64,000 bases of DNA, from IMG/VR virus record IMGVR_UViG_3300007554_000511, positions 1 through 64,000 of that record. One strand, 5' to 3'. The notes beneath the pieces were generated by a model. That model saw nothing but the letters and a program-made list of their open reading frames with translations, did not search any database and was not told the DNA's origin. The stretch comes from a virus. The position numbers and the translations under genes were made by a program. Position 1 is the stretch's first letter. Each line of letters begins with the position of its first letter. Shown here in pieces: positions 5,311 through 61,883 of this stretch.

Positions 5311-5405
5311 GTGTCTGTCTCAATCTCTATAATCTTAATATAGTCGATTCTGCGTCTAAAGTCAAGAACTTTTTTTACCAAGAACTTTGATAGTAGAAGT
5401 CCCAT
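5307..5405 (-). CDS. Possible 32-residue peptide overlapping a promoter
   Basis: An ATG six bases after AAGGAT ends in TGA that overlaps the ATG of the lipoprotein gene (ATGA). The product is short and basic (starts MGLLLSKFLVKKVLDFRRR). The frame also contains the promoter at 5337-5365, so it may be a leader peptide or chance. Confidence 0.35.
   Translation of the reverse strand: MGLLLSKFLVKKVLDFRRRIDYIKIIEIETDT
5337..5365 (-). promoter_or_regulatory. Sigma70-type promoter with GAATC spacer
   Basis: TTGACT, 17 bases, TATATT on the minus strand, reading into the lipoprotein gene and tRNA cluster. The spacer contains GAATC three bases upstream of the -10. Confidence 0.75.
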
Positions 5406-5415
5406 AATCTTATCC

Positions 5416-5709
5416 TTATGCTACTTTTTTCAACATTTCAGCGGGAACTTTCCAGTTCGTAGTCATATTGTTGCGGTTCACTTGGCGAACCATAACAGTC
5501 TTGCGATTGATTTTGGTGACTTCGCCATTGATAAGAACATCACGCGCAACAAATTCAACATTGTCGCCGATCACAAGTGTACGACGATTTTGATTTTGAA
5601 CGAAAGTGCGTTGAAGTTTAACACGTTCTGCGACCTTTACAATTTGATCAAAGTCGCCTTTGCCGATAAGAGTGAGAACGGTTTCCATTTCTTTTGCAGT
5701 CATTTTCAT
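5416..5709 (-). CDS. Small basic protein with KOW/SH3-like segment, unknown
   Basis: Ninety-seven residues. The middle (residues 45-80: LVIGDNVEFVARD, INGEVTKINRKTVMVRQ) has the alternating pattern of a small beta barrel such as KOW or SH3 domains, which bind nucleic acid, but no family is confirmed. It has its own promoter 28 bases upstream. Confidence 0.65.
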   Translation of the reverse strand: MKMTAKEMETVLTLIGKGDFDQIVKVAERVKLQRTFVQNQNRRTLVIGDNVEFVARDVLINGEVTKINRKTVMVRQVNRNNMTTNWKVPAEMLKKVA

Positions 5710-5736
5710 CTGTGTATCTCTCTTTGTTACAGTATG

Positions 5737-5765
5737 TTTATATCGTGATTCGCATAGAATGTCAA
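5737..5765 (-). promoter_or_regulatory. Sigma70-type promoter with GAATC spacer
   Basis: TTGACA, 17 bases, TATAAA; the spacer holds CGAATCAC with GAATC four bases before the -10. The -35 hexamer overlaps the stop codon of the upstream small gene. Confidence 0.85.
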
Positions 5766-5914
5766 GAAAGTTTTTCTAGTTTTTTGAAAACTTCCCACAT
5801 TTCAACTAGTAAAGGATGGGTCTCGGGCTCACGACCGACCAGTCCATCATATACTAGGTCATGTACTTCTTCGAATTTCGCTTCCACAAGTTTCAAAAGT
5901 TCCTGACGATCCAT
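5762..5914 (-). CDS. Small acidic protein, unknown (50 residues)
   Basis: A 50-residue frame from ATG 5912-5914 to TGA 5762-5764, starting MDRQELLKLVEAKFEEVHDL, helical and acidic. It is bracketed by two promoters of the same design, and its stop codon lies in the next -35 box. Function unknown. Confidence 0.65.
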   Translation of the reverse strand: MDRQELLKLVEAKFEEVHDLVYDGLVGREPETHPLLVEMWEVFKKLEKLS

Positions 5915-5939
5915 CTTTAACTCCCTTTGTTACAGTATA

Positions 5940-5968
5940 TGTATAATGTGATTCGCGGTGAATGTCAA
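5940..5968 (-). promoter_or_regulatory. Sigma70-type promoter with GAATC spacer
   Basis: TTGACA, 17 bases, TATACA; spacer contains GCGAATCACAT, GAATC four bases before the -10. It serves the 50-residue gene. Confidence 0.85.
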
Positions 5969-5986
5969 GAATATTTTTTTAAATTC

Positions 5987-6316
5987 TTACACCGTTTCTA
6001 CTTCTTTGAAGCCCATCATTGCAACTTTATAGGTCTTACCGTTCGCTACCATGCGATCAAACATTGAAGTGCTACGCAGCCCGTAAGTGCGCCCGTTAGC
6101 AACATGAAGCGGGGCAAGAACAGTTACATCATCGTTAGCATCCGCACCAATCTTCATGCTCCACGAACCGTCAACGTTGTTAGTGTAACGGTAAGCATAT
6201 TCAAGTGCTTCGTCGATGTCTTCAGTGTGCCACACGTTCACTTCTGCAACATCAGTAAACCCTTCTACTGAACCAGTGATTTCGTTTTGGTTGATGTGTT
6301 GAACGGTAACTTTCAT
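5987..6316 (-). CDS. Hypothetical phage protein
   Basis: A 109-residue soluble protein with mixed alpha/beta character and no recognised motif. It is a single-gene unit with its own promoter just upstream, like its neighbours, a pattern typical of phage early accessory genes. Confidence 0.7.
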   Translation of the reverse strand: MKVTVQHINQNEITGSVEGFTDVAEVNVWHTEDIDEALEYAYRYTNNVDGSWSMKIGADANDDVTVLAPLHVANGRTYGLRSTSMFDRMVANGKTYKVAMMGFKEVETV

Positions 6317-6341
6317 GATGACCTCTCTTGATTACATAACT

Positions 6342-6370
6342 GTTATATCGTGATTCGTTTAGTTTGTCAA
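6342..6370 (-). promoter_or_regulatory. Sigma70-type promoter with GAATC spacer
   Basis: TTGACA, 17 bases, TATAAC; spacer contains ACGAATCACGA with GAATC four bases before the -10. Confidence 0.85.
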
Positions 6371-6377
6371 GAAAATT

Positions 6378-6396
6378 AGCGGAAAGATTTTCCGCT
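6378..6396 (-). terminator. Terminator-like hairpin
   Basis: Perfect 8-bp stem AGCGGAAA/TTTCCGCT with a three-base loop, followed on the minus strand by AATTTTC. It lies after the frameshifted gene and before the next promoter. Confidence 0.6.
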
Positions 6397-6420
6397 GAAT
6401 ACTTCAAGAATACCGTAGTA

Positions 6421-6646
6421 CTAATCTTCGTTTGCATCACGAAGAATTGCAAGCGGAGCCTTACCGGCGTCACGCTCTGCGAAGTAACCTTCAACAGTAT
6501 GATTTGCGATTAGTTCTTTGATGAACTTTGCTTTAGTGAAAGGCCCGCAATGCTTAAACCGCGCTACAAAATTTTCAGGCTTTGCTTTACCGTAGAAAAC
6601 ATAGTCACCTGAAGTGGTAAAGTTTGTTTTTACGAGCAATAGCCAT
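6421..6646 (-). pseudogene. Frameshifted, truncated copy of the 7205-7456 gene
   Basis: The conserved part of this frame (VFYGKAKPENFVARFKH, TKAKFIKELIANH, GKAPLAILRDANED) closely matches the intact paralogue at 7205-7456. An ATG at 6646 with a strong GGAGG site opens in another frame and would need a one-base shift in the short A run (CGTAAAAACAAAC) to join it; the C-terminal tail of the paralogue is also missing. Either a decaying duplicate, a frameshifted gene product, or a read from a TTG internal start. Function unknown. Confidence 0.55.
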
Positions 6647-6823
6647 TTAATCCTCCATTCCAACTGTTGACTCTCTGTTAATAATATCAGTCCACATATC
6701 AATTTCATCGCGATAGTTCTCAAGCATAGCAATCAACCATTCAACGCGACCTGCTAGATCAGCTTGTTTCCAATCTTTAGAATCATATAGATCATCACGT
6801 AGCAAGGCAGAAATCTTTTCCAT
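6647..6823 (-). CDS. Small helical protein, unknown (58 residues)
   Basis: ATG at 6821-6823 directly follows the stop of the upstream gene and the frame ends TAA at 6647, overlapping the next ATG in a TAATG context. It begins MEKISALLRDDLYDSKDWKQ. Tight packing supports it as real. Function unknown. Confidence 0.65.
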   Translation of the reverse strand: MEKISALLRDDLYDSKDWKQADLAGRVEWLIAMLENYRDEIDMWTDIINRESTVGMED

Positions 6824-7201
6824 TTAACCCTCCAACGCGGCAAAAGCCGATGCCATGTCGTAGTATTCGTCAAAGCGATTTACTACTTGACGAAGACCTT
6901 CACTGTGTCCATCTTCGTATGCAGGTCCCCATAGCACTGCAAATTGCTTTTCATTGATATCATAATCGGCTTGAATAGCTTCCCGCAACTCCTTCATACG
7001 AAGAGTTTTTTGTGAGGTATAGTATGCAATATTTTCTTTATATGATTCAAGTTCACGTTCATATTCAGCTAAAGCGTAAGCATACACAAGAGCTTCTTCA
7101 GAATTTGGGTCGCGACCAAGTGTTGGCTTAATAGGCTTGGAGTACTGTTTCAGGTCCGCACCCTCGTAGTAAGCATAGTCGTAGTTGTTCATATCAGTCA
7201 T
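6824..7201 (-). CDS. Hypothetical acidic protein
   Basis: A 125-residue, tyrosine- and glutamate-rich protein with a likely helical middle (about residues 35-85). No motif recognised. It sits four bases after the 7205-7456 gene and probably shares its promoter. Confidence 0.68.
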   Translation of the reverse strand: MTDMNNYDYAYYEGADLKQYSKPIKPTLGRDPNSEEALVYAYALAEYERELESYKENIAYYTSQKTLRMKELREAIQADYDINEKQFAVLWGPAYEDGHSEGLRQVVNRFDEYYDMASAFAALEG

Positions 7202-7204
7202 TCC

Positions 7205-7456
7205 TTATTTCATACCCAGCAGGCCATAGAACCAATCTTCGTTAGCATCACGCAGGATTGCAAGAGGAGCTTTTCCTTCAGCCATTCCAGCAAAGTAGCT
7301 TTCTACAGAATGGTTAGCAATCAGTTCTTTTAAGAACTTTGCTTTAGTGATCGGCCCGCGATGTTTGAAACGAGCAACAAAGTTCTTCATGCTGTACTGG
7401 CCGTAATAAACATATTCGCCGTCTTTGATGAAGTTTTCTTTTACGAACTTGGTCAT
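7205..7456 (-). CDS. Hypothetical small protein, intact paralogue
   Basis: An 83-residue protein containing YVYYGQYSMKNFVARFKHRG and KAKFLKELIANHSVESYF. A second, damaged copy lies 560 bases downstream, so this family was duplicated locally. It has its own GAATC promoter. Function unknown. Confidence 0.7.
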   Translation of the reverse strand: MTKFVKENFIKDGEYVYYGQYSMKNFVARFKHRGPITKAKFLKELIANHSVESYFAGMAEGKAPLAILRDANEDWFYGLLGMK

Positions 7457-7485
7457 TTGCGTCTCTCTCTCTTGACTACATTATT

Positions 7486-7513
7486 AATATAGCATGATTC
7501 GCACGAATGTCAA
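7486..7513 (-). promoter_or_regulatory. Sigma70-type promoter with GAATC spacer and extended -10
   Basis: TTGACA, 16 bases, TATATT preceded by TGC (extended -10). The spacer holds GCGAATCATGC with GAATC four bases before the -10, identical in the core to the promoters at 25947 and 29414. Confidence 0.87.
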
Positions 7514-7516
7514 GTT

Positions 7517-7759
7517 TTAATCATCATCTTTTCGTATCAGCAAACGTTCTTCCATACGTTCTTGGAAATCCATTATTTTTTCACTCTCTATCATAGAGAT
7601 TATCAAGTTGGTAACTTCGATGTCCTTCTTAATGAAGAACATCTTTTGTTCTAGTTTTTCCAACTGCTTCTGATAATAGTCAAGTTCTTTTTGTTTTCTT
7701 AGTCTGGTCTCAAGTACCTCAGACAACATTATTAATTTCTGCTGTTCACTATCTGACAT
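7517..7759 (-). CDS. Short coiled-coil protein, unknown
   Basis: Eighty residues from the ATG at 7759, chosen because GAGG lies six bases upstream; a start ten codons earlier would overlap the dehydrogenase gene. The central part (residues 15-65) is a heptad coiled coil with Lys/Glu/Leu. Function unknown; it may be a small adaptor. Confidence 0.62.
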   Translation of the reverse strand: MSDSEQQKLIMLSEVLETRLRKQKELDYYQKQLEKLEQKMFFIKKDIEVTNLIISMIESEKIMDFQERMEERLLIRKDDD

Positions 7760-7766
7760 ATGTACC

Positions 7767-8744
7767 TCACTGTAGTCTACGATTTGCAAAACGCTCTGCT
7801 ACGATTTGTGCAGGGACTCCATCGTGTTCTGCTTCGTCTAGAATATCTTTTACTTTATCTGCTAGATCAGTTGTCAGTGCTTTTTGATAGTCTTTCTTTT
7901 GAAAGTCCAGAGCAACGGCCACGACCCCACCGCAGTTTGCGATAAAATCTGGAACATATTTGTATCCAAGATTTTGTGCTATACCAACATCATTCTCTGT
8001 TTCGAATTGGTTGTTTGCACTACCGCATACTAATTTTGGCTTCATAGTATTTAGTGATCTTAGATTTAGCGTAGCACCTAACGCACACGGTACATACATG
8101 GTGGCTGGCGTTGAGAACATATGTTGGCTTGATAGCATTTTCACCGTATCCATCGTAGTGAACGGGTCTACACCAAACACAATGCCGCTGTCTCTTTGTA
8201 ACATTGTTACGAGTCGTGAACCTACTTTACCAAGTCCTTGGACAATAAATGTCGAACCGTTAATGCGATTGTTGTTGTGCTTTAGTAGTGTGTCGATACA
8301 AGTGTGAACGCCCAATGCTGTTGGGTGACTGCTATCTAGTGTGATACCAGCAACATAACTCGTGCCATCGTTTACTTTATACAAGTCGGCTGTTGTCGTG
8401 CCAATATCACCTGCACAAATATATGCCCCATCTAAAAGGTTAACCGCTTTCCCTAGTATCTGAAAAGCGGCTTCTCTGTTTTTTATCTTGTTTGCATTCA
8501 CTGTCGTTTTCGCGCCGCCGTGATCTAGTCCACCTGCTGCATTTTTAAACGTCATACCTTTACTCAAACGTAGTGCATCAGTTAATTGATCTTGCTCATT
8601 CTGATAGTCATACAGTCGTATGCCACCTATTGCTGGGCCTAACTTTGTGCTGTGAAGTGCTATAAATGCATCTAATCCAGACGCATCATCTGTGACACGG
8701 ATTACTCTTTCGTATCCATCTTTTTCCACGTTTGAGAATTTCAT
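7767..8744 (-). CDS. Leucine/Glu/Phe/Val dehydrogenase family protein
   Basis: NAD-dependent amino acid dehydrogenases deaminate branched-chain or related amino acids to keto acids and ammonium, or run in reverse. The 325-residue product has the substrate-side motif GPAIGGIRLYDY (residues 36-47), the catalytic lysine in GMTFKNAAGGLDHGGAKT (about residues 63-80), and the Rossmann motif VQGLGKVG (about 170-177). The length is slightly below the usual 345-365. Leucine or phenylalanine dehydrogenase is likelier than glutamate dehydrogenase by size. A dehydrogenase of this type in a phage context is unusual and suggests diversion of host amino acid or nitrogen pools. Confidence 0.85.
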   Translation of the reverse strand: MKFSNVEKDGYERVIRVTDDASGLDAFIALHSTKLGPAIGGIRLYDYQNEQDQLTDALRLSKGMTFKNAAGGLDHGGAKTTVNANKIKNREAAFQILGKAVNLLDGAYICAGDIGTTTADLYKVNDGTSYVAGITLDSSHPTALGVHTCIDTLLKHNNNRINGSTFIVQGLGKVGSRLVTMLQRDSGIVFGVDPFTTMDTVKMLSSQHMFSTPATMYVPCALGATLNLRSLNTMKPKLVCGSANNQFETENDVGIAQNLGYKYVPDFIANCGGVVAVALDFQKKDYQKALTTDLADKVKDILDEAEHDGVPAQIVAERFANRRLQ

Positions 8745-8779
8745 TATTCGCTCCTAATAGATTGGGGTCTAATAAGAGC

Positions 8780-8797
8780 GGATCCCCGAAGGGATCC
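8780..8797 (-). terminator. Hairpin with TTCG tetraloop
   Basis: GGATCCC-TTCG-GGGATCC on the minus strand, 22 bases after the glutaredoxin stop codon and upstream of the dehydrogenase gene. The UUCG loop makes a very stable RNA hairpin; the following T run is weak. Confidence 0.6.
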
Positions 8798-8818
8798 TAT
8801 GACCCCTATATATATTTA

Positions 8819-9061
8819 TTAGATTTGATCAAGTTTTGCTTTTAACTCAGTGAACCCGCCAACGTATTCACCATCTAACCAAATTTGTGGAACAGTGCGA
8901 GGTACAACGTTTTCTGCTGCACATGCTTCCATTAGCGATTCCCGTGCGCCCTCAGTTGTCTCTAGATTGATTTCTTCAAATTTGATATTACGAATAGTCA
9001 TTAGTGTCTTTGCTTGCACACAAAAGGTGCATTGCGTTTTTGTATAAATCTTTGCTTCCAT
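8819..9061 (-). CDS. Glutaredoxin
   Basis: An 80-residue glutaredoxin that reduces disulfides with glutathione and, in phages, often serves ribonucleotide reductase. It has the redox pair CTFC (residues 12-15), the cis-proline TVP (about residues 56-58) and the GGF glutathione-binding turn near residue 68. It starts two bases after the ferredoxin reductase gene, so they are probably co-expressed. Confidence 0.92.
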   Translation of the reverse strand: MEAKIYTKTQCTFCVQAKTLMTIRNIKFEEINLETTEGARESLMEACAAENVVPRTVPQIWLDGEYVGGFTELKAKLDQI

Positions 9062-9063
9062 GT

Positions 9064-9831
9064 TTATCCTACAAATGCTTTTTCTAGCACGAATTCACCT
9101 TTAGTGTTGGCGTTGCCTTCCGTGCATCCCTGTTCTTCAATGAAGTATTTTCTCAACTCCATATTCATTTCATGAGAACCACACACCATCACTCTATCGT
9201 GTTCTGGATCGAACGGCTCTATGTTTAATTTATCTTGAACCTTACCAGTATAAAGTGCGTCTGTAATTCTTCCAGTAGTATGGAAGTCTTCGCGTGTCAC
9301 TGTTGGATAAAATACAAATTTACCTTGAGTGACTTCACCGTATATTTCGTGGTCATTGAGTGTATTTAGAAAATCGTGATACGCAAGTTCTGCAATTTCA
9401 CGTGTTCCCCACATCAGAATAACACGATCAAAGTTATCATAAAAATCTAATGATCTTGTAATACTCATAAATGGTGCGACACCAGTACCAGTTGCGAGTA
9501 GATACAAGTTTCTCCCAGACTTGATATTGTCCATTACAAGTGTGCCAACTGCTTTTGTGTTTACAAGCAATTCGTCGCCAACTTTAACATGTTGCAGTCT
9601 ACTTGTGAGTGGACCATCTTGAACTTTGATTGAAAAGAATTCTAAGTATTCTTCATAGTTGGGAGATGCAACTGAATATGCACGTAGGAGTGGCTTACCA
9701 TCTACTTCGATCCCGATCATTAGAAACTCACCGTCACGAAACTTAATGTTTGGTGAGCGAGTTGTACGAATTCTGAATAGTCTGTCTGTGAAGTGTTCTA
9801 CTTCTAGTATCGTTTCTTTTTGAATTGCCAT
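9064..9831 (-). CDS. fpr: Ferredoxin/flavodoxin-NADP+ reductase
   Basis: This FAD enzyme moves electrons between NADPH and ferredoxin or flavodoxin. The 255-residue product from ATG 9829-9831 has the FAD motif RAYSVASP, the NADP phosphate loop GTGVAPF, the VMVCGS strand and a C-terminal FVLEKAFVG aromatic tail, all of the bacterial Fpr class. A longer frame upstream would overlap the broken gene beside it. With the FdxA-type ferredoxin (48273-48611) and glutaredoxin it forms a possible phage-encoded redox set. Confidence 0.92.
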   Translation of the reverse strand: MAIQKETILEVEHFTDRLFRIRTTRSPNIKFRDGEFLMIGIEVDGKPLLRAYSVASPNYEEYLEFFSIKVQDGPLTSRLQHVKVGDELLVNTKAVGTLVMDNIKSGRNLYLLATGTGVAPFMSITRSLDFYDNFDRVILMWGTREIAELAYHDFLNTLNDHEIYGEVTQGKFVFYPTVTREDFHTTGRITDALYTGKVQDKLNIEPFDPEHDRVMVCGSHEMNMELRKYFIEEQGCTEGNANTKGEFVLEKAFVG

Positions 9832-9833
9832 TG

Positions 9834-10079
9834 TTAACCGTATTTTAAAATTAGTTCTGCTTTTTTTTCTTCTGGAGCAGTTGTCCATTTAATCCAAGTG
9901 TCAAACTCCATTATTGTATCATGCCAATAGAAAAATTCTTCATCAACTTGAATAAACGCGGGACCATCTACACGATGAATCTTTCCATACTGATACCAAA
10001 TCTTTTGCTTGACTATGTGATCACATTATGCTGGACCTTCGTCCCTATGCATACTCCCAAACCGATAATATATAGTCAT
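9834..10079 (-). pseudogene. HRxDGPA-repeat protein interrupted by an in-frame stop
   Basis: The frame starting at ATG 10077-10079 reads MTIYYRFGSMHRDEGPA and then a TAA; beyond the stop the same frame continues with WYQYGKIHRVDGPAF and about 40 more residues to a TAA at 9834-9836. The two HR.DGPA repeats flank the stop, so one gene seems to have been broken. Related HNRKGPA wording occurs in the gene at 24709. Function of this repeat family is unknown. Confidence 0.6.
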
Positions 10080-10110
10080 ATCATCATAGTTGTGGATAGC
10101 ATACTTGTGA

Positions 10111-13164: not shown

Positions 13165-13193
13165 ATATTACATCAACATCGTGCCATTGTCAA
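13165..13193 (-). promoter_or_regulatory. Sigma70-type promoter without GAATC
   Basis: TTGACA, 17 bases, TAATAT. It gives a leader of about 160 bases before the 12698-12994 gene. No GANTC occurs in the spacer. Confidence 0.75.
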
Positions 13194-13199: not shown

Positions 13200-13877
13200 T
13201 TATGATTGCCAACGATAAAAAAGATGTGCGCCGATTTGTCCGATTTCGTCCATACTGGCCGAACGCGACCAGTATGGATTTACGTAAGTCGCGTGATAGT
13301 GCGTTGCACCTTCTGCGAGACCACGATATTCGTTAGTATTCAGAATGTCCCAAGCAACTGCTTTGGCACGTTCCCAGTTTTCGCTTTCTGGAATACGATC
13401 ACTCTTACCATCACAATACCAAGAGAATTGGCATTGATTGCGGATCATGTTTCCATTTGCGTCTTTGTGACCTTGATGAATTACCCCGCAAATTGTATCA
13501 GGATAATGGTCATGTTCTACTCGGTTGAGAACAGTGTTTGCTACTGCTGCCATACCTGCTAGATTGTCAATACCAGCCTCAAAGAAAATGTTCTGTGCCA
13601 TGCAAAATTGCTCTGCATCGCTTTCTGGGTTTGCAATAAACGCTGCACGTTGTGCAAGCATTTCCGCGGTTAGTTCATTAGTGTAGACAGCTTTTTCAAC
13701 AACTACCGGTCGCTCAATAACTACTACACGATCAGGTGTGACTGCATCCATGCCAATCACTGCATTGTATTGAACATCATCTTGACTGTTAGTATTTGCA
13801 TAGCCATTTGTGATTGCTACCATACCGATAATTACTGCGGCATTGAAAGCTAGGCTTGCTGCATTGATACCCTTCAT
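13200..13877 (-). CDS. SleB/CwlJ-type cell wall hydrolase, exported
   Basis: A peptidoglycan hydrolase of the hydrolase_2 family. The 225-residue product has an N-terminal hydrophobic segment (about residues 8-25), a variable linker, and the catalytic domain from about residue 90 with NIFFEAGIDNLAGMAAVANTVLNR containing the family glutamate, and CQFSWYCDG, typical of SleB-like phage proteins. It may act in lysis or local wall opening. Its own GAATC promoter lies upstream. A different, M15-type endolysin is encoded at 34500. Confidence 0.88.
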   Translation of the reverse strand: MKGINAASLAFNAAVIIGMVAITNGYANTNSQDDVQYNAVIGMDAVTPDRVVVIERPVVVEKAVYTNELTAEMLAQRAAFIANPESDAEQFCMAQNIFFEAGIDNLAGMAAVANTVLNRVEHDHYPDTICGVIHQGHKDANGNMIRNQCQFSWYCDGKSDRIPESENWERAKAVAWDILNTNEYRGLAEGATHYHATYVNPYWSRSASMDEIGQIGAHLFYRWQS

Positions 13878-13911: not shown

Positions 13912-13940
13912 TTTATAGTGTGATTCGCAACGGATGTCAA
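13912..13940 (-). promoter_or_regulatory. Sigma70-type promoter with GAATC spacer
   Basis: TTGACA, 17 bases, TATAAA with GCGAATCACAC in the spacer; GAATC is four bases before the -10. It drives the cell wall hydrolase gene. Confidence 0.86.
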
Positions 13941-14838: not shown

Positions 14839-14867
14839 TTTATATACGATTCGTATATAAATGTCAA
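14839..14867 (-). promoter_or_regulatory. Sigma70-type promoter with GAATC spacer
   Basis: TTGACA, 17 bases, TATAAA; the spacer contains ATACGAATCGTA, where ACGAATCGT is nearly palindromic. It drives the 14488 and GreA-like genes and overlaps the end of the small membrane gene upstream. Confidence 0.82.
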
Positions 14868-25946: not shown

Positions 25947-25974
25947 AATATAGCATGATTCGCAAGGATGTCAA
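25947..25974 (-). promoter_or_regulatory. Sigma70-type promoter with GAATC spacer and extended -10
   Basis: TTGACA, 16 bases, TATATT with TGC before it; spacer GCGAATCATGC puts GAATC four bases before the -10. Confidence 0.87.
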
Positions 25975-27125: not shown

Positions 27126-27275
27126 TTATGCTCCTAGTTCTACTTCTTTGATACGTGTGTCAGTAATATCGTCAGCAATGTTTTCTGCGATGGTTTCGGC
27201 AATATCGTAGGATTCAGTTACAAACTGTTTTACTTTTTGATCTGCAACGTAAACTTCAACAATGTACTGCTTCAT
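27126..27275 (-). CDS. Small acidic protein (49 residues)
   Basis: ATG 27273-27275 overlaps the stop of the kinase gene as ATGA; TAA at 27126 lies just before the RNA ligase start. It begins MKQYIVEVYVADQKVKQ and has a beta-beta-alpha look. It sits between kinase and ligase, so may assist or simply share their transcript. Confidence 0.62.
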   Translation of the reverse strand: MKQYIVEVYVADQKVKQFVTESYDIAETIAENIADDITDTRIKEVELGA

Positions 27276-27808
27276 TCGTCAACTCCATAATCAATGCCAA
27301 GCAAGGCACCATGCATATTGTAGAAAGTGATCATATCAAAACCTTCCGCTACAGTAGGGACAGTAAATGATTCGATCATATTAGTCAAGATGTTTTGTGG
27401 AATAGTTTTTCCAGGACGATTGCGCAAGCGATAGGCCCACGCTTTTTGATCATCGAACCACCCTGCTTCTGGTGGAATGATACATTCACAACGAACTTGG
27501 TATCCCGCTTGCTTCATACGGTTGATGATTTTCTTACGCTTGCCTTCACCAAGGTTGGTTTGGTCCCAGATGATGTCTCGCTGTTCTTTAATTGCATCAT
27601 CTAACAGTGCGTTCATGGACTCTGTTGCTGCTTTGATGTTATCTTCAAACGCTTCATTATAAGTCTTACCAAAGTTGGCGGCCGCTTCTTCAATGAATTG
27701 GTCAGTGCTGTAAATGAAAGTATCAACATCTTTATACATACCATTTACAATAGTGGATTTGCCCAAACCAGGCAAGCCAACCATTACATAACAAATAGGT
27801 TCAGACAT
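27272..27808 (-). CDS. Polynucleotide 5'-kinase (PseT kinase-domain type)
   Basis: A 178-residue P-loop kinase with MVGLPGLGKST (residues 8-18), STDQFIEEA as the acidic catalytic segment, IIWDQTN and a lid with arginines (RLRNRPGK). This is the layout of the N-terminal kinase half of T4 polynucleotide kinase. The 3'-phosphatase half is absent and is instead encoded at 28930-29379. Position directly upstream of the RNA ligase supports a role in tRNA repair. Confidence 0.82.
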   Translation of the reverse strand: MSEPICYVMVGLPGLGKSTIVNGMYKDVDTFIYSTDQFIEEAAANFGKTYNEAFEDNIKAATESMNALLDDAIKEQRDIIWDQTNLGEGKRKKIINRMKQAGYQVRCECIIPPEAGWFDDQKAWAYRLRNRPGKTIPQNILTNMIESFTVPTVAEGFDMITFYNMHGALLGIDYGVDE

Positions 27809-28434
27809 TATTTCTCCAATGCTTGTGCTAGTTTGCGAGTTGTGTCAATACCCTCTATGACACTGTTATAGAATGATTCGTTCACATTGTCAACCAAAAT
27901 ATTCAGCATCATAGTTTCTTTGAGTTTTTGCATAAACGAAATGTTGTTTCGTGCAAATTCTTCAACCGTGCAACCATACAAGTTCATAGACTCATTCATA
28001 ATCCTTACAAAGTTATTTGTTGTTTGCACTTTGTCAGTCAATGCGTGAAGGTCTGCACGAATAAGTGCTTTATGAGTATCTTTTGACCAAGTTGTGACTT
28101 CGTGGCGAATAGTCTGCCCGATAAGAATACCAATCTCAATCAAATCAACTTCATAATTGCTAAATCCGCTATATTGTTTACACATATCGTAGAATAGCAA
28201 TGCAGAACGTTCTTCTTTATCTGGTTGATTATCATACACAATGTCGTGAAACATTACTGCCCAATCAAGATTGGAATCGTATGGAACGTTTGTATCTTCA
28301 AGATACTGATACATCGCTTCAATATGACTGTTGTTGTGATACTCGCAACCGTTGATTTCGTTCTCATTCATAAGAACATATGCTTCGGTTGCCAGATCAG
28401 TGTATTGTATTCTAGACCAAGGATAAGCACTCAT
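27808..28434 (-). CDS. HD-domain metal-dependent phosphohydrolase
   Basis: A 208-residue helical protein with YHNNSHIEAM (about residues 32-41) and the HD pair in VMFHDIVYDNQPDKEERS (about residues 60-77), followed by a conserved distal DLHALTDK. This fits the predicted HD-superfamily hydrolases related to nucleotide phosphatases. It lies between the kinase and phosphatase genes of the RNA repair set; a role on cyclic phosphates or nucleotides is possible but not shown. Confidence 0.78.
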   Translation of the reverse strand: MSAYPWSRIQYTDLATEAYVLMNENEINGCEYHNNSHIEAMYQYLEDTNVPYDSNLDWAVMFHDIVYDNQPDKEERSALLFYDMCKQYSGFSNYEVDLIEIGILIGQTIRHEVTTWSKDTHKALIRADLHALTDKVQTTNNFVRIMNESMNLYGCTVEEFARNNISFMQKLKETMMLNILVDNVNESFYNSVIEGIDTTRKLAQALEK

Positions 28435-28601: not shown

Positions 28602-28930
28602 TACAGTTCCTCTACAGTTTGTTGACCTAGTTCGATTCGATCAATTGATTCTGGAGCATGCCAAACGTTACCAATACGAATTCCGTCACTACCACGTTTA
28701 TCAAGCCAACTATTAAGATCAGAGTTAAACGAATTCTCGTTAGCGTTTCTAAACACCCAATCACGACCCCTAACATCCTCTTGACTATACACTCTGATAA
28801 ATGGGTTGTCAACTCCTTTGATATAAACTTTCAATAATTGATTACGCCGACGAAGAGGGTCGGTTTCGTAAGCCTTCTCTGCTTCGGTTTGTGGGTTCCA
28901 GAACCATTTAAGTTTTTCAATTAGTGACAT
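28601..28930 (-). CDS. Hypothetical protein
   Basis: A 109-residue soluble protein with an aromatic N-terminus (EKLKWFWNP) and no recognised motif. One-base overlap with the phosphatase gene upstream and TAATG coupling downstream. Confidence 0.65.
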   Translation of the reverse strand: MSLIEKLKWFWNPQTEAEKAYETDPLRRRNQLLKVYIKGVDNPFIRVYSQEDVRGRDWVFRNANENSFNSDLNSWLDKRGSDGIRIGNVWHAPESIDRIELGQQTVEEL

Positions 28931-29379
28931 TAGAAGTCCTCTTCACCTTGATATACATTAAAAACAAAGATACCGTTATCACGCCACATGCGCACAACAC
29001 GTGGACGATCATCAAACACCATGTCAGGCTTTTTACCGTAGTCCGCAATGATTTGATCCAAGATTTCTTGCTTGACAATGTCATCGCTGCGGAAGTCGTC
29101 TGCCTTACGCATGAACAGATGCGAATCAACGCTCCAAAAGCCATTAGCATCCAGCCATGCTACAGTAGCATCACCGCTACGCTCGTTACGACCACTGGCA
29201 AACACAATGTCGTGACCAGCATCACGCAGAGCAAAGAACGCTGCTGCCACATGTGGATTCACAACATCATTCGGAATGCCAGCGTCAAACGCCTTCCAGT
29301 TCTTTGGTTTGCTGCGAACATAATCCAGCCGATGCTCGATGTTTGCTAAGGTTCCGTCAATGTCAAATACTACCAGCAT
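28930..29379 (-). CDS. Polynucleotide 3'-phosphatase (PseT phosphatase-domain type, HAD)
   Basis: The 149-residue product aligns by eye with the C-terminal half of T4 PseT: HAD motif FDIDGTLANIEHR (residues 4-16), VNPHVAA, the FASGRNER loop, the RSDDIVKQEILDQII segment and VFDDRPRVVRMWRDNGI (about residues 117-133). That half removes 3' or cyclic phosphates from cleaved tRNA. Here it is a free-standing gene, with the kinase half 1.1 kb downstream. It is first behind a GAATC promoter. Confidence 0.85.
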   Translation of the reverse strand: MLVVFDIDGTLANIEHRLDYVRSKPKNWKAFDAGIPNDVVNPHVAAAFFALRDAGHDIVFASGRNERSGDATVAWLDANGFWSVDSHLFMRKADDFRSDDIVKQEILDQIIADYGKKPDMVFDDRPRVVRMWRDNGIFVFNVYQGEEDF

Positions 29380-29413: not shown

Positions 29414-29441
29414 GTTATAGCATGATTCGCGAGGATGTCAA
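29414..29441 (-). promoter_or_regulatory. Sigma70-type promoter with GAATC spacer
   Basis: TTGACA, 16 bases, TATAAC preceded by TGC; GCGAATCATGC in the spacer. It drives the phosphatase-HD-kinase-ligase run. Confidence 0.87.
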
Positions 29442-46449: not shown

Positions 46450-46739
46450 GCACCTAGGCTTACTGGTCCTGCAATTTCTGCAAGGAATAGCATTTGAATG
46501 AATTCGTGTTCGTCAAACTCATTATTTCCATCACGCGATTTAATTATTGTTATAGGTTCGTTATCAATCTTTCGCCATACTTTGCCTGCGTTGTACATTT
46601 TACTCATTGACGCCATCCGACTAAGATCATCTGCAATAGGATAATCACCACGAATATACCGAGTTTCAATCTCTGCTAATGGCAGACCATAAACTTCGGC
46701 AACATATGAGTCATAGCGATAGTAATGTATGATTTTCAT
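46446..46739 (-). CDS. Hypothetical protein
   Basis: Ninety-seven residues, mixed alpha/beta, no motif. One-base overlap upstream, four-base overlap downstream. Function unknown. Confidence 0.62.
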   Translation of the reverse strand: MKIIHYYRYDSYVAEVYGLPLAEIETRYIRGDYPIADDLSRMASMSKMYNAGKVWRKIDNEPITIIKSRDGNNEFDEHEFIQMLFLAEIAGPVSLGA

Positions 46740-47134
46740 TACGAACCTGTGATTAGCATAAGAGAACCATCTTCTTGCATTTCAAAATCTTCGATATAGC
46801 GATGATGTGTACCGCTCTGACGAATGCAAGATTCGGCAGCGAACCAAAGAGACTTAACAGAACCGTCTGTTGCAAACATCGTAACTTCTGCTGATGAACG
46901 CTTTCCACCATCGCGTAGGTCTGTCATTAATTCTTCGGTCGTTGCATCAGGACGAATATATTCATAGCGCACTTGACGCATTTTGTTATTGAAAATTTCA
47001 AAGTCGAGGTCTACGTTACCAGCATCGTAAATTGACCAGATTGATTCATAACCCAGTGCGGATTGCTGTTTGCCCCAGTATTCGAATGAATCTGCGATGG
47101 CTGCGACGGTATCTACAACAGTGTTCATTTTCAT
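46739..47134 (-). CDS. Hypothetical protein
   Basis: A 131-residue protein from ATG 47134, preferred because an upstream ATG sits in the AAAGGA ribosome site. Beta-rich C-terminal half. First gene behind a GAATC promoter. Function unknown. Confidence 0.64.
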   Translation of the reverse strand: MKMNTVVDTVAAIADSFEYWGKQQSALGYESIWSIYDAGNVDLDFEIFNNKMRQVRYEYIRPDATTEELMTDLRDGGKRSSAEVTMFATDGSVKSLWFAAESCIRQSGTHHRYIEDFEMQEDGSLMLITGS

Positions 47135-47157
47135 GTCCTTTATCACTTACATATATA

Positions 47158-47186
47158 TGTATAGAGTGATTCGTCCATTATGTCAA
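47158..47186 (-). promoter_or_regulatory. Sigma70-type promoter with GAATC spacer
   Basis: TTGACA, 17 bases, TATACA; spacer contains ACGAATCACTC with GAATC four bases before the -10. Confidence 0.85.
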
Positions 47187-50121: not shown

Positions 50122-50484
50122 TTAAGTTGCAACTTTTCTGTTGCTAGGTAAGTTGCCAACCCCCACGTGCTATTAAGCCGCTAGTTTTGCCATTGCTGGC
50201 GCTGCGTTTGTGTTTGCAGTTATAAAGTTTGACCGAATAACGTAGGTCACCACGGTTAACTCCACTCTATCTTCACACCTGTCGATTCCTAATTCAGCCC
50301 CATCAAAAACACACTTTACAGGATTTGAACCTGTAATCGTACTAGGGTTCCTCATCGTACTACCGTTCCTAGACCACCTTGCTTTTGCTGTATAACATAC
50401 GCTTTCAAAGTGTGTTTGTGGTGGAGCTGTCGGGATTCGCACCCGAGTCCAGTATGTGTCCACGTTGCTTCAACGCTAACAGTT
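50122..50484 (-). ncRNA. ssrA: Circularly permuted (two-piece) tmRNA
   Basis: The acceptor piece comes first in transcription: T-arm TCGGG-TGCGAAT-CCCGA and CAGCTCC-ACCA ending at 50419. An intervening 117 bases (50302-50418) follow, then the coding piece starting GGGGCTG at 50301, which pairs with CAGCTCC. The tag frame at 50173-50217 reads ANTNAAPAMAKLAA and stops. A terminal GCAAC/GTTGC hairpin ends near 50122. This order is that of the alphaproteobacterial two-piece tmRNA, which rescues stalled ribosomes and tags proteins for ClpXP. The intervening segment has an 11-bp stem (50307-50317/50407-50417) abutting a tRNA T-arm (50318-50334), so it is itself tRNA-like. Boundaries are approximate. 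Confidence 0.93.
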
Positions 50485-50486
50485 TA

Positions 50487-50515
50487 TTTATAGCATATAA
50501 AGTATTAGATGTCAA
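50487..50515 (-). promoter_or_regulatory. Dual promoter of the tmRNA gene
   Basis: TTGACA, 17 bases, TATAAA, where the -10 continues as TATAAATAA and so also matches the late motif. The -10 ends three bases before the predicted RNA. Confidence 0.8.
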
Positions 50516-50519
50516 TAAA

Positions 50520-56958: not shown

Positions 56959-57077
56959 TGTGGCCTTATAATGATGAAGAATGGGATTTTATTTCATTAC
57001 CAAATAAAAAACCTTGGTTGTTCGCCATACCAGTACTAGAACATAATTTTTGGATAAAAATAAAAGCCGCTCTTTGA
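56958..57077 (+). CDS. Tiny protein (39 residues)
   Basis: TAATG overlap with the previous gene; starts MWPYNDEEWDFISLPNKKPW, aromatic-rich, and its end is inside the terminator stem. Translation is plausible through coupling. Unknown. Confidence 0.55.
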   Translation: MWPYNDEEWDFISLPNKKPWLFAIPVLEHNFWIKIKAAL

Positions 57078-57087
57078 AGCGGCTTTT
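57062..57087. terminator. Bidirectional terminator overlapping the last small gene
   Basis: AAAAGCCGCT-CTTTGA-AGCGGCTTTT, serving both the plus-strand operon and the minus-strand spoVR gene. Confidence 0.9.
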
Positions 57088-57091
57088 ATTA

Positions 57092-58591
57092 TTATTTTAT
57101 GAGACGTTTACATTCATATACATCTAACGTTTCATCGTTGTACATACTGTACAATCTAACATCGTATCCCCACAGCTTTTGAATATTGATAAGAACTTGA
57201 TCTGCATCTTTCTTATTCAATCTGCGACCTTGATAACTGTGGTGAGTAAGTGTCAACTCACGTGTTTCTGTGATATCTGCTTCCGTGACCTGAATATCTG
57301 GAATCATCGCTGCTGTTTCGTACTGTGCGCTAAGACTCTTACGAACATCACGATATCCTTTTTCATTGTGAATACTTGTAACAACATAGTTGTCAAAATA
57401 TTCTTCATCGTGCAGAGTGAACAATTTCCAATCACGAATTACTTTTGGACCTAAGAATTGACGAATTGCACTTTCGTCACGATAATTCGCAACAATGTCA
57501 CGAATAGTTTCGCGCCAATCAGTTCCGACAATATGTGGGAACCATTCTTCATCTTCTTTGTCAGGTGTCTCACATGCACGTTGTACATCTTTTAGAATTG
57601 CAAATCCAAGAGCATATGGATTGAATCCACTGTAATGCTTTGAATTGAAGTTTGGTTGATACAACACCGCACTGTGCAATTTGAAGAATTCAATCATCGC
57701 ACCATCGTCAACTTTTCCTTGATTATAAAGTTCATTGAAGATGTAGTGATGCGTGAAACTTGCAAAACCTTCGTTCATAACTTTTGTTTGATATTGCGGA
57801 TAGAAGTATTGTGCAATACGTCTAACAATGCGACAAATCTCACGTTGCCATGGACGAAGTACCGGAGAATGCTTTTCTAAGAAGTAAAGTAGATTTTCTT
57901 CTGGTTCACTTGGCCATACTCGTTTTTCTGCTTTCTTATCTTCTTCTTTCTTTGGTACTGTTCTCCAAAGGTCATTCACCTGCGATTGTAGATATTGACT
58001 ACGTTCACGTTGTTTTTCTGCTTCAAGTTTTGCGTTCAACTTCGTAGGACGCTTATACTTGTTAATACTCTGATATTGAATTGCGTGGCAAGCATCAAGA
58101 GTTTCCTCAACGAGTGCTTCACCGTAACGTTCTTCGCATTCACGAATATAATTTTTAGCAAATACAAGATAATCTACAATGGCATCAGGCGATGTCCACT
58201 GCTTGAACAAATAGTTGTTCTTAAAGAAGTGATTGTGACCGAATGCAGCATGTGCAATAACAAGTGCCTGCGTAGTCATAGAGTTTTCTTCCATCAAATA
58301 GTTGATGCAAGGATTACTATTAATAACAAGTTCGTATGCAAGGCCCATGTGGCCTTTGCGATACTGTTGCATGTTTCCGATGAAACTCTTACCAAAACTC
58401 CAATGATTATACATTAGCGGCATGCCAACACTGCTGTAAGCATCAAGCATCTGTTCTACTGTGATAATTTCAATTTGGTTTGGGAAGCAATCTAGTCCCA
58501 TATCGTTGACTGCGATTTCTTCACACGCATCCATGACGCTATAAAGTTTGTCGAAGTCCCAATGTGTACCGGTGTATAGTAGATTACTCAT
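57092..58591 (-). CDS. SpoVR family protein (YcgB)
   Basis: A 499-residue protein. YcgB/SpoVR is part of the prkA-yeaH-ycgB regulon of stationary phase; its biochemical role is unknown. Conserved segments include HWSFGKSF (about residues 63-70), GLAYELVINSNPCINYLMEEN, AHAAFGHNHFFKNN and an HWVG-type end of the N-terminal block, as in the bacterial family. Full length. It overlaps the yeaH-like gene by four bases, as in bacterial operons. Confidence 0.93.
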   Translation of the reverse strand: MSNLLYTGTHWDFDKLYSVMDACEEIAVNDMGLDCFPNQIEIITVEQMLDAYSSVGMPLMYNHWSFGKSFIGNMQQYRKGHMGLAYELVINSNPCINYLMEENSMTTQALVIAHAAFGHNHFFKNNYLFKQWTSPDAIVDYLVFAKNYIRECEERYGEALVEETLDACHAIQYQSINKYKRPTKLNAKLEAEKQRERSQYLQSQVNDLWRTVPKKEEDKKAEKRVWPSEPEENLLYFLEKHSPVLRPWQREICRIVRRIAQYFYPQYQTKVMNEGFASFTHHYIFNELYNQGKVDDGAMIEFFKLHSAVLYQPNFNSKHYSGFNPYALGFAILKDVQRACETPDKEDEEWFPHIVGTDWRETIRDIVANYRDESAIRQFLGPKVIRDWKLFTLHDEEYFDNYVVTSIHNEKGYRDVRKSLSAQYETAAMIPDIQVTEADITETRELTLTHHSYQGRRLNKKDADQVLINIQKLWGYDVRLYSMYNDETLDVYECKRLIK

Positions 58592-59877
58592 TTAGCTTTT
58601 GCGTCCTGTTTCTTAAATATTTCTCGGAATACTGGATAGATGTCTGATCTATTCTCAATATACTTAGATATGAGATTTTTGTGTGTGCTTTCTAGCTTCT
58701 TGTATTCGTCAATTAGGTTACCAGACGCGTAATAGCTACCTTTACGCATTTCACCAACCTGAATATAACTAAAATACTGTGTGATTGGTAGAATATCTTT
58801 TGACAGAATATTCTTCAATTTTTCGTTGTCTTCACTCCAGTTGTCACCATCGCTTGCTTGTGCGAAATAGATGTTCCACTCATTTGGCGAATACCTATCT
58901 TTAAGAATATCTTTCGCAAGTTCAAATGCACTACTTACGGTTGTACCACCGTTTTCCCTGAGATTGAAGAATTCTTCTTCGGAACATTCACGTGCAGTAA
59001 TGTGGTGCCTAATGAACACACATTCTACTCGCTTATACTTGCGAGAAATAAACAAGTTCAATAGCATGAAATAGCGTTTTGCAAGTTCTTTATGAAACTC
59101 TGTCATAGACGCAGAAACGTCCATAACAAAAAACACAACAGCTTGTGAAGTAGGTCTAGGTTTCTTGGAAAAGTTATTGTAACGTAAATCTACTGGATCA
59201 ACGAATGCTACCGAATTTGCACGAATTCGTAGTTTACGAATTTCTTCTTCAAGTTCTAAACGCTTATCTTCGTCTTCCTCAGTTTCAAGTATCGCTTCAA
59301 GTTCACGTATCTTACGTAGCTTTGGCGTTTTCAATGCGATCTTACGACCCATTGAATTAATCATACTCTGTTCTAGATTTAGCTGTGCGGGGTTACCTTC
59401 ATTGGTATAGCCACTGCGAGACATTTCAAAACGTTCTACTGTTTTGTTCTCTTTGCTAATCATGTGAGGAAGTTCTAGGTCTTCGAAAAGTATATTGATA
59501 AATTCGTCATTGCTGAGAGCAAAACCAAATTCGTCTTCGCCTTCGCCCTCATTGCTTGCTTTCCCTTCACCAGAGCCTCCACCAGAGCCTCCACCTTTTG
59601 GTTTCTGTAGCAAGTCCCCTTCTACGAAATCTTCGTTTCCTGGGAGAACAATATCACGTGAACCGCTATCGCTCTTGTGATTGAATTGCGGTTCACTTAT
59701 ACCTTTACGAGTAATGACCACTTCTTGATCGTCCCCCGAACCTTTGATGCTGCGTTTGCCTAAAGACTCGTGGATGCTTTTTCTAATTTCATCTTTAGTT
59801 CTTTTAATGAACTTTTGACGATTACCTGAACTTTTTCCGCCAGGATTTTTTCTTCGATCAATGATAGTGTTTGCCAT
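58588..59877 (-). CDS. YeaH/DUF444 von Willebrand-like protein
   Basis: A 429-residue partner of PrkA. It has VVFFVMDVSASM (MIDAS-like DxSxS, about residues 248-259), an RNGGTTVSSAFELA segment (about residues 307-320) and an N-terminal basic, low-complexity part with KPKGGGSGGGSGEGK. In E. coli YeaH is co-expressed with YeaG. Ends overlap both neighbours' leader or stop. Confidence 0.93.
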   Translation of the reverse strand: MANTIIDRRKNPGGKSSGNRQKFIKRTKDEIRKSIHESLGKRSIKGSGDDQEVVITRKGISEPQFNHKSDSGSRDIVLPGNEDFVEGDLLQKPKGGGSGGGSGEGKASNEGEGEDEFGFALSNDEFINILFEDLELPHMISKENKTVERFEMSRSGYTNEGNPAQLNLEQSMINSMGRKIALKTPKLRKIRELEAILETEEDEDKRLELEEEIRKLRIRANSVAFVDPVDLRYNNFSKKPRPTSQAVVFFVMDVSASMTEFHKELAKRYFMLLNLFISRKYKRVECVFIRHHITARECSEEEFFNLRENGGTTVSSAFELAKDILKDRYSPNEWNIYFAQASDGDNWSEDNEKLKNILSKDILPITQYFSYIQVGEMRKGSYYASGNLIDEYKKLESTHKNLISKYIENRSDIYPVFREIFKKQDAKAK

Positions 59878-59886
59878 TATAAGTCC

Positions 59887-61821
59887 TTAGTTAGACTTTT
59901 GTACGCGCATATACCATTCTACTAGTCGTTTTACCTGACGCCCGGTATAACCCTTTTCGATCATGCGTGAAACAAAGTCGTTGTGCTTCTGTTCTTCTTC
60001 TTTTGACTTTTTGCTGCCGAAAGAAATAACTGGAAGTAGTTCTTCTGTTCCTGCGAACATCTTGTTTTCGATAACTTCACGCATCTTTTCGTATGCAGTC
60101 CAAGGTGGGTTGTTACCGTCATATTTAACTCGCGCACGAAGAACCCAATTAACGACTTCATTACGGAAGTCTTTTGGATTTGCGATGCCAGCTGGTTTTT
60201 CAATCTTTTCAAGTTCTTCATTTAGAATTGAACGATCAAAGAGGTTACCGGTATCGGGATCTTTGTAATCAATATTTTGAATCCAGTGATCCGCATAATC
60301 TAGATAACGATCAAACAAGTTCTGTCCATATTCGTTATAACTTTCTAGATATGCTTTCTGAATTTCATTACCTACTTGCTCTGCATAACGAACACTTAGA
60401 TAGTCTTTGATGTATGAAAGAAGACGTTGCTCCGTTTCTTCTGGGAATTGTTCACGCTTGATTGCGGTTTCTAGAACATACATCAAGTGTACTGGGTCTG
60501 CACTAACTTCATTTGTGTCAAAGTTGAATGTCTGTGACAGAATTTTGAAAGCGAAACGAGTAGAAATACCACTCATACCTTCATCAACACCTGCAACATC
60601 TTTATATTCTTGCATCGTCTTTGCTCTTGGGTCAACATCTTGTAGATTTTCGCCATTGTACACTCGCATCTTCGCTGGAAGATTTGAGTTTGTGTGTTCT
60701 TTCAAACGTGACAGAACTGTGAACTGTGCAAGCATTTCAAGTGTGTGAGGTGCGCACTTCGAATTGTCTAGACCAGAAGACTGTAGCATCTTTGCATAGA
60801 TGTGTGTTTCTTCATCTGTGCGCAAGCAGTATGGAACTTTAACAATGTAAACACGATCCAAGAACGCTTCGTTGTTCTTGTTGTTGCGGAATGCTTCCCA
60901 TTCGCTTTCGTTAGAGTGTGCAACTACTACACCGTTGAATGGAATAGCTGAAATGCCTTCTGTCCCCATGTAGTTGCCTTCCTGCGTTGCAGTAAGTAGT
61001 GGGTGAAGCACTTTAATTGGTGCTTTGAACATTTCAACGAACTCCATCATACCTTGGTTGCCTCGGCAGAGACCACCGGAGAATGCGTATGAGTCCGGAT
61101 CGTTTTGTGAGAAATATTCTAGTTTACGAATATCAGTCTTGCCTACTAGTGATGAAATGTCTTGGTTGTTATCATCACCGGGTTCAGTTTTCATGATGCC
61201 AATTTGCTTCAACTTACTTGGGTACATCTTGACTACTGAGAACTTTGTAATATCACCACTAAATTCATCAAGACGCTTTACTGCCCACGGTGAAAGTAGA
61301 CCGTTGATATAACGCTTTGAGATACCATATTCTTCTTCTAGGTCTGCTGCGAACTGCTTTGGTTCAAACAATCCTAGAGGAGTTTCAAATATTGGCGATA
61401 GTTCGTCGCCTGCTTTTAGTACATAGATTGGATGTACTTCCATTAGTTCTTTTAAACGCTCTGCGAGTGATGATTTACCACCACCAACTGGACCAAGAAG
61501 ATAAAGTACTTGTTTCTTTTCTTCTAGACCTTGTGCAGAATGTCGGAAATAAGCGACCAGGCGCTCAATTGTTTCTTCCATTCCAAAGAAATCTTTGAAT
61601 GCTGGATAAACTTTAATAGTACGGTTTAAGAAGATACGGCTTAGTCGTGGATCTGAACTTGTGTCAACAATTTCAGGTTCACCGATTGCTTGTAGCATAC
61701 GCTCCGCCGCTGTAGCATATGCAAGCCGATCTGTCTTACAAAGTTCTAAGTATTCAGCAATTGACATTTCATCTTCTTGCTTACTAGCATAAACTTTGGT
61801 AAACTTTTCTAGAACGCCCAT
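59887..61821 (-). CDS. prkA: PrkA/YeaG serine protein kinase
   Basis: A 644-residue kinase with an N-terminal AAA-like ATPase domain: Walker A LLGPVGGGKSSLAERL (about residues 108-123), PLGLFEP and GNQGMMEFVEMFK, and a C-terminal PrkA kinase domain (from about residue 400). YeaG/PrkA phosphorylates proteins in nutrient stress and sporulation. Length equals the bacterial enzyme. Its promoter (61855) carries GAATC in the spacer. A phage copy could reprogram host starvation response. Confidence 0.96.
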   Translation of the reverse strand: MGVLEKFTKVYASKQEDEMSIAEYLELCKTDRLAYATAAERMLQAIGEPEIVDTSSDPRLSRIFLNRTIKVYPAFKDFFGMEETIERLVAYFRHSAQGLEEKKQVLYLLGPVGGGKSSLAERLKELMEVHPIYVLKAGDELSPIFETPLGLFEPKQFAADLEEEYGISKRYINGLLSPWAVKRLDEFSGDITKFSVVKMYPSKLKQIGIMKTEPGDDNNQDISSLVGKTDIRKLEYFSQNDPDSYAFSGGLCRGNQGMMEFVEMFKAPIKVLHPLLTATQEGNYMGTEGISAIPFNGVVVAHSNESEWEAFRNNKNNEAFLDRVYIVKVPYCLRTDEETHIYAKMLQSSGLDNSKCAPHTLEMLAQFTVLSRLKEHTNSNLPAKMRVYNGENLQDVDPRAKTMQEYKDVAGVDEGMSGISTRFAFKILSQTFNFDTNEVSADPVHLMYVLETAIKREQFPEETEQRLLSYIKDYLSVRYAEQVGNEIQKAYLESYNEYGQNLFDRYLDYADHWIQNIDYKDPDTGNLFDRSILNEELEKIEKPAGIANPKDFRNEVVNWVLRARVKYDGNNPPWTAYEKMREVIENKMFAGTEELLPVISFGSKKSKEEEQKHNDFVSRMIEKGYTGRQVKRLVEWYMRVQKSN

Positions 61822-61854
61822 ATAATATATTCTCCGCTTTTCTATGATGTTTTA

Positions 61855-61883
61855 ATAATACTTGTATTTGCGATTCGTGTCAA
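61855..61883 (-). promoter_or_regulatory. Sigma70-type promoter with GAATC near the -35
   Basis: TTGACA, 17 bases, TATTAT; CGAATC lies directly after the -35 (GAATC at spacer positions 2-6) instead of near the -10. It drives the prkA-yeaH-spoVR operon. Confidence 0.8.

Follow-up and report, generated by a model that had tools for sequence, protein, structure and literature searches.

CGAATCA at a fixed place in sigma70-type promoters of an uncultured jumbo phage, a candidate site for host GcrA

The stretch of DNA analysed here (the window) comprises bases 1-64,000 of a 112,630-base virus record (IMGVR_UViG_3300007554_000511). On its minus strand lies a series of sigma70-type promoters that carry the word GAATC, mostly as CGAATCA, between the -35 and -10 boxes (Table 1). 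The record overlaps the 342,181-base IMG/VR contig 3300027757_000397 (G003): the sequences agree at the two joins (139 and 491 bases), their combined length fits exactly and the promoter sites are displaced by one constant offset, a correspondence based on the joins and the site positions. Judged from sequence, the window is part of a 342-kb jumbo phage of the T4 superfamily, and G003 encodes T4-superfamily proteins including a UvsX-like recombinase, a terminase, a tail sheath and a ribonucleotide reductase. Two further contigs, G001 and G006, are relatives of G003 (51-60% median identity over the proteins in common) and are therefore not independent of it. Comparison of the terminase places Pseudomonas phage PA5oct with its kin (55%), Agrobacterium phage Atu_ph07 (52%) and Sinorhizobium phage Phosso (50.5%) nearest among isolates, so that the host cannot be read from kinship alone.

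All eleven GAATC-bearing promoters that an earlier note on this DNA had listed are present on the minus strand, with sigma70-type -35 and -10 boxes. As that note had described, GAATC stands exactly 4 nt upstream of the -10 box within CGAATCA in eight of them (the offset-4 rows of Table 1 other than 27865); a ninth such promoter, at 27865, had been overlooked. The six promoters that it had listed as lacking GAATC (13165, 16442, 32451, 41815, 50487 and 63069) are likewise present and without GANTC, the -10 boxes at 13165 and 63069 being weak. Its suggestion of two promoter classes thus agrees with what is seen in the window, where promoters without CGAATCA do occur beside element-bearing ones. 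The note had also named two checks, an overall count of GANTC and its enrichment in the spacer over shuffled sequence; as described below, the word is enriched in the spacer and depleted overall.

Table 1. Element-bearing promoters and two host-indicating features of the window
Feature	Element	Positions	Strand	Remarks
Promoter	TTGACT; GAATC 3 nt upstream of -10 (offset variant)	5337..5365	-	Precedes ORF 4984-5310
Promoter	CGAATCA; GAATC 4 nt upstream of -10 (offset 4)	5737..5765	-	Precedes ORF 5416-5709; kept in G001 ortholog
Promoter	CGAATCA, offset 4	5940..5968	-	Precedes short ORF read by eye
Promoter	CGAATCA, offset 4	6342..6370	-	Precedes ORF 5987-6316
Promoter	CGAATCA, offset 4; 16-nt spacer with TGC at its end	7486..7513	-	Precedes ORF 7205-7456
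Promoter	CGAATCA, offset 4	13912..13940	-	Precedes endolysin gene; kept in G001 ortholog
Promoter	CGAATCG, offset 3	14839..14867	-	Within an ORF as first called
Promoter	CGAATCA, offset 4; 16-nt spacer class	25947..25974	-	
Promoter	CGAATCA, offset 4	27865..27893	-	Within an ORF, upstream of 27272-27808; sole ortholog seen (G006) without element
Promoter	CGAATCA, offset 4; 16-nt spacer class	29414..29441	-	Precedes polynucleotide kinase/phosphatase-like gene 28930-29379
Promoter	CGAATCA, offset 4	47158..47186	-	Precedes ORF 46739-47146; kept in G001 and L123 orthologs
Promoter	Second placement, GAATC near -35 (CGAATCG)	61855..61883	-	Precedes YeaG-like gene 59887-61821
Endolysin (PF07486)		13200..13877	-	Pfam E 3.8e-24; PHROG endolysin; downstream of promoter 13912
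Permuted tmRNA, alphaproteobacterial type		50125..50519	-	RF01849 91.7 bits, RF04321 101.8 bits; promoter-like site 50487 without GAATC

With a strict promoter pattern (TTGAC, a spacer of 16-18 nt, TATA), GAATC occupies offset 4 in 9 of 18 sites of the window and in 24 of 66 sites of G003. Permuting the letters within the spacers of G003 1,000 times never produced more than 2 such sites (mean 0.06), and ten sequences generated by a first-order Markov model had 0 or 1. The same holds for G001 (18/40) and G006 (15/39), with permutation maxima of 1 and 2 (1,000 each). All 24 offset-4 promoters of G003 lie on the minus strand and have TTGACA as -35 box; when GANTC is accepted anywhere in the spacer, 27 of the 66 sites contain it. 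The reversed pattern had no match in any of the 19 records scanned. These promoters form a real and unusual class.

The geometry of the element is tied to one of the two boxes. Spacers of the offset-4 sites in G003 measure 16 nt at 9 sites and 17 nt at 15, and because the offset is the same in both, the distance is fixed relative to the -10 and not to the -35 box. Although only GAATC was forced, it is preceded by C at all sites of both spacer classes of G003 (100% each), at 85% of those in G001 and at 94% in G006, and followed by A at 100% (G003, spacer 16), 73% (G003, spacer 17), 95% (G001) and 100% (G006). When promoters were chosen by their -35, -10 and start-region signature without requiring GAATC, CGAATCA was the top word (17/31, 12/21 and 11/19). 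In G003, 23 of 54 copies of CGAATCA lie outside genes, where 7% of the sequence is non-coding on a crude ORF map, against 2/64 for CGTATCA and 2/47 for CGAAACA. Offset 4 dominates, offset 3 also occurs, and in a second placement the element lies at the -35 box (TTGACGAATCR or TTGACACGAATCG; five sites in G003 and two in G006, with two pairs alike by eye); one orientation is seen.

Recent copying of one promoter cassette, with no selection for the element, could produce such a series. TGTAA is conserved around the expected start of these promoters, and the 16-nt class, which has TGC ahead of the -10 box, is much alike from CGAATCA through -10, as copies would be. In the 17-nt class, however, the upstream flank is weakly conserved, as are the letters between the -35 box and the element except the last, and the occurrence of the element near -35 in another arrangement also argues against copying. 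Of 46 comparisons of regions upstream of orthologous genes, 35 retain the promoter, and at 35-84% protein identity the sequence has diverged around the retained element; this set is biased because its loci were retrieved with the promoter pattern. By contig, G001 keeps the promoter in 5 of 5 rows (four distinct, one upstream region being counted twice) and G006 in 0 of 2. Cassette copying is thus already disfavoured, and we regard it as very improbable.

The promoter recurs well outside the window. IMG/VR holds at least 117 loci with the GAATC pattern, and 39 of the 117 loci listed hold two or more copies (several of these 39 being one contig), compared with 1 of 69 for the scrambled word CTAAGC and 1 of the 120 listed for GATTC. 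Raw counts alone are not decisive, because GATTC and TGATTCG also reached at least 120 each; CTAAGC gave 69, GACTC 33, GAGTC 29 and CGAAACA 54, the TGATTCG and CGAAACA patterns being one base longer than the others. Once repeated cores were removed, the matches listed numbered 118 for GAATC, 72 for GATTC, 23 for TGATTCG, 48 for CTAAGC, 21 for GACTC, 25 for GAGTC and 34 for CGAAACA; 61 of the 117 TGATTCG matches listed were a single repeated sequence that resembles coding DNA. A control pattern with a wider gap, and hence the wrong spacing, found 16 stretches. GAATC is set apart from the control words by clustering.

Of the 39 multi-copy loci, 34 have one or more protein matches to G003, G001 or G006, in some cases few and of low identity. 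Five loci, seen as fragments only (L134, L097, L038, L040 and L137), are similar to Pelagibacter phage HTVC112P, with a median identity of 36-47% across 2-11 proteins; four of them have no match to the jumbo group, and L027 matches neither group. The same promoter is therefore present in related phages and in a second, HTVC112P-like lineage. Of two IMG/VR matches from non-metagenome datasets, L080 is a family member by eye and L072 is not. BLAST with two single promoters gave no isolate recognised as bearing the element, among all 17 records for one promoter and the best 40 of 100 for the other, S-RIM2 being the one that was read. Three uncultured phages of 635-642 kb (LR745206, LR756502 and LR756504) encode a YeaG-like protein of 60-62% identity without the promoter, and one of them has one match to the reversed control.

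Two apparent variants were set aside. On inspection by eye, the GAGTC promoters of other contigs resemble repeated operators from unrelated phages, and CGAAACA promoters appear in the loci read to be one orthologous promoter in distant phages. The unrelated contigs L583, L587, L588, L591 and L606 have CGAGTC promoters, four of the five with an extra, repressor-operator-like CGAGTCG just downstream. Atu_ph07 (L498-L517) has a separate repeated promoter family with a T-rich spacer, a ATCGAAAC start region and no GANTC in the spacer.

Ten proteins encoded behind element-bearing promoters were compared with Pfam: six have no family, and the others are the endolysin, a glycine-zipper protein, the polynucleotide kinase/phosphatase-like protein and an AAA ATPase. 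As a guess, the genes behind CGAATCA promoters may be early genes. Stretches 6421-6732 and 7205-7456 on the minus strand are paralog-like neighbours, of which the copy near 6.5 kb looks degraded by eye, its frame being interrupted. Three adjoining minus-strand genes at 57092-61821 resemble a SpoVR-YeaH-YeaG set, the SpoVR and YeaH labels being tentative; the YeaG-like protein shares 60-67% identity with its counterparts in Enterobacter phage LAU1 and the three 635-642-kb phages.

Read on the opposite strand, CGAATCA is TGATTCG, which in Caulobacter, together with YGAKTCK, is reported as the extended motif of activation by GcrA (PMC7987155). GcrA is a sigma70 cofactor that binds sigma2 and m6A-methylated DNA (PMC7403470), and in Caulobacter those cell-cycle promoters that have GANTC between -10 and -35 become active at 40-60 min (PMC4287350). 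We therefore consider it probable, with clear reservations, that CGAATCA is an activator element of one sigma70 promoter class and is read by host GcrA at GANTC methylated by CcrM. Host GcrA would arrive at these promoters together with sigma70 RNA polymerase, recognise the GANTC of the element, probably methylated by host CcrM, and with the polymerase open the promoter. We infer that GcrA is the reader and that the site carries the methyl mark at the relevant time; the class would then depend on the cell-cycle state of the host or on how the incoming DNA is methylated. Virion DNA that was GANTC-methylated in the previous host could even serve as a timer, in that GcrA-sigma70 fires the class at once, replication to hemi- or unmethylated copies shuts it off and the cell-cycle stage of the host also gates infection; this extension we hold to be rather doubtful.

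The frequency of GANTC in the genome as a whole favours this reading. The word is depleted overall: the window has 122 copies, whereas dinucleotide shuffles average 216, and G003 has 1314 against 2073 expected (both strands, 0.63), the strongest avoidance among 16 palindromes of the same form. The ratio of observed to expected is 0.86 in G001 (again the most avoided of the 16) and 0.74 in G006 (third). Among reference phages, 11 of 14 of them measured on part of the genome (50-400 kb), six of eight with alphaproteobacterial hosts (HTVC008M, phiM12, phiM9, Atu_ph07, phiCbK and DSS3P2) have ratios of 0.17-0.85, as against none of six others at or below 0.85 (T4, S-PM2, S-RIM2, LR745206, MIJ3 and 121Q; 0.95-1.24), LR745206 having been placed in this group without recorded host or proof. 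GANTC depletion has been published for about half of 33 pelagiphages (PMC9516812), and Pelagibacter methylates GANTC (PMC12570018, PMC9516812). The earlier note had proposed that the phage may exploit or evade this cell-cycle control; evasion is not favoured, because GANTC is kept in promoters while it is avoided overall.

The host indicators point the same way. The permuted transfer-messenger RNA (tmRNA) of the window exceeds, at 91.7 bits, the cut-off of 50 bits for Rfam alpha_tmRNA (lower-scoring families of the same clan were set aside), and G001 has an alpha-type tmRNA of 126.3 bits (L475:16552-16859; first 140 of 155 kb searched); none above the cut-off was found in the G006 contig or the five HTVC112P-like loci. 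Matches to the endolysin occur in 35 of 96 sampled Alphaproteobacteria (45% identity at best) and in none of 99 Gammaproteobacteria, the two classes compared, with the alphaproteobacterial matches as positive control for the zero. Together, tmRNA type, endolysin matches and GANTC avoidance suggest an alphaproteobacterial host for G003. By eye, the tmRNA of the window has an extra tRNA-like sequence between its two pieces. The relative G006 has a GOLLD RNA (L482:9335-9797) and 36 tRNA matches (L479, L482), one of them within the GOLLD match.

No N6_N4-family methylase, the only methylase family searched, was found in G003, which has a DPPY-like ORF without Pfam match. G006 encodes one, as does G001 (L455:1339-2205); the best Protein Data Bank match of the latter is CcrM (E 2.9e-21), and its score against NCBIfam CcrM is 98 bits, far under the 830-bit cut-off.

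Several findings weigh against GcrA as the reader. A search for GcrA, which detected phiCbK as positive control, revealed no such gene in the phage or in those relatives that it covered, so GcrA must come from the host. The exact pattern is absent from nine isolate phages, phiCbK included; seven of the nine have alphaproteobacterial hosts, and Pelagibacter, Sinorhizobium, Caulobacter, Agrobacterium and Ruegeria phages are among them. HTVC112P (0.95) and Phosso (0.97) do not avoid GANTC despite their alphaproteobacterial hosts, and HTVC008M avoids it most strongly (0.17) yet lacks the element. A looser pattern gave 19 matches in 385 Alphaproteobacteria (L376 between ORFs, L432 within an ORF) compared with 9 for the reversed control, and the exact pattern found 115 scattered stretches in the GTDB collection, four of them titled Alphaproteobacteria, Rhodobacteraceae, Parvularculaceae or Pseudomonadota; in the bacterial genomes searched, this architecture thus appears in no clear excess, a weak one at most. 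Furthermore, N is A in 57 of 58 offset-4 GANTC sites, and in direct orientation TGATTCG forms no promoter family among IMG/VR pattern matches. The GcrA site has been deemed essentially palindromic, with little effect expected of moderate shifts, and B. subvibrioides reportedly did not show the extended motif (both PMC7987155); a scan of phage genomes reports no asymmetry of GcrA sites (PMC9437464). The link to GcrA and CcrM drawn by the earlier note is upheld in part: the motif, the genome-wide avoidance and the host markers speak for it, and the isolates, the alphaproteobacterial genomes and the near-constant N in one orientation speak against a simple reading of it.

Because N is A in all but one site and the orientation is single, more than GANTC must be read. 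GACTC, which YGAKTCG would permit, occupies offset 4 in 0 of 58 sites. GANTC can, on the other hand, survive a change of N: an ortholog in L103 has CGATTCG, with N = T, and a few GATTC matches followed by G resemble family members by eye. The asymmetry fits the GcrA motif, but it would fit a phage-encoded protein equally. Such an activator or sigma appropriator could read CGAATCA beside host sigma70 in the style of T4 middle mode, the GANTC being coincidental. The fixed orientation, the preference for A and the fixed distance to -10 would suit one asymmetric protein, the architecture is uncommon in bacterial genomes and most multi-copy loci match the jumbo group. Set against this are the coincidence of CGAATCA with the published GcrA motif, the avoidance of GANTC as a whole word and the presence of the element in the five HTVC112P-like loci, mostly without jumbo-group match. 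No candidate gene is in hand, no systematic search having been made. We consider a phage-encoded reader unlikely.

Another host factor, or RNA polymerase itself, might also contact this part of the spacer with methylation playing no role. A promoter of cyanophage S-RIM2 has a similar -10 and start region without GAATC, so that the element resembles an addition to an ordinary promoter, and TGC ahead of -10 in the 16-nt class would agree with such a contact. This leaves the genome-wide avoidance of GANTC, the match to the GcrA motif and the N = T ortholog unexplained, and we judge it quite improbable. If host GcrA is indeed the reader, these phages would possess a promoter class defined by an epigenetic mark of the host, present both in large uncultured phages and in a second lineage, and the element would be an easy marker by which phages possibly using the GcrA/CcrM system could be recognised from sequence.

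Among the papers listed by our literature searches, judged by title, opening of the abstract and excerpts, we found no description of GANTC-bearing phage promoters or of GcrA at phage early promoters. Related principles are known from other systems. The mom gene of phage Mu, which is controlled through host Dam methylation of adenines in the phage DNA, is an example of a methylation-sensitive phage promoter; there a single gene and Dam sites are concerned, here a genome-wide promoter class and GANTC. In T4-type middle promoters, the box of the activator MotA replaces the consensus -35, whereas the offset-4 sites of G003 all retain TTGACA. Promoters controlled by CtrA in alphaproteobacterial phages ('lytic deferment', PMC9437464) similarly tie phage expression to a host cell-cycle regulator through promoter sites, with a different regulator and a different site. 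The phiCbK-like phages (PMC3556154) and Atu_ph08 (PMC6630229) participate in the GcrA system by encoding GcrA homologs, whereas G003 carries the sites only. The closest counterpart appears to be the GcrA/CcrM-dependent sigma70 promoters of Caulobacter crescentus, which likewise have sigma70 -35 and -10 boxes with GANTC between them and TGATTCG on one strand (PMC7987155, PMC4287350, PMC7403470). The class described here, known from sequence alone, differs from them in being phage-borne, in its near-consensus boxes and single orientation, in its position mostly 4 nt from the -10 box and in an N that is nearly always A.

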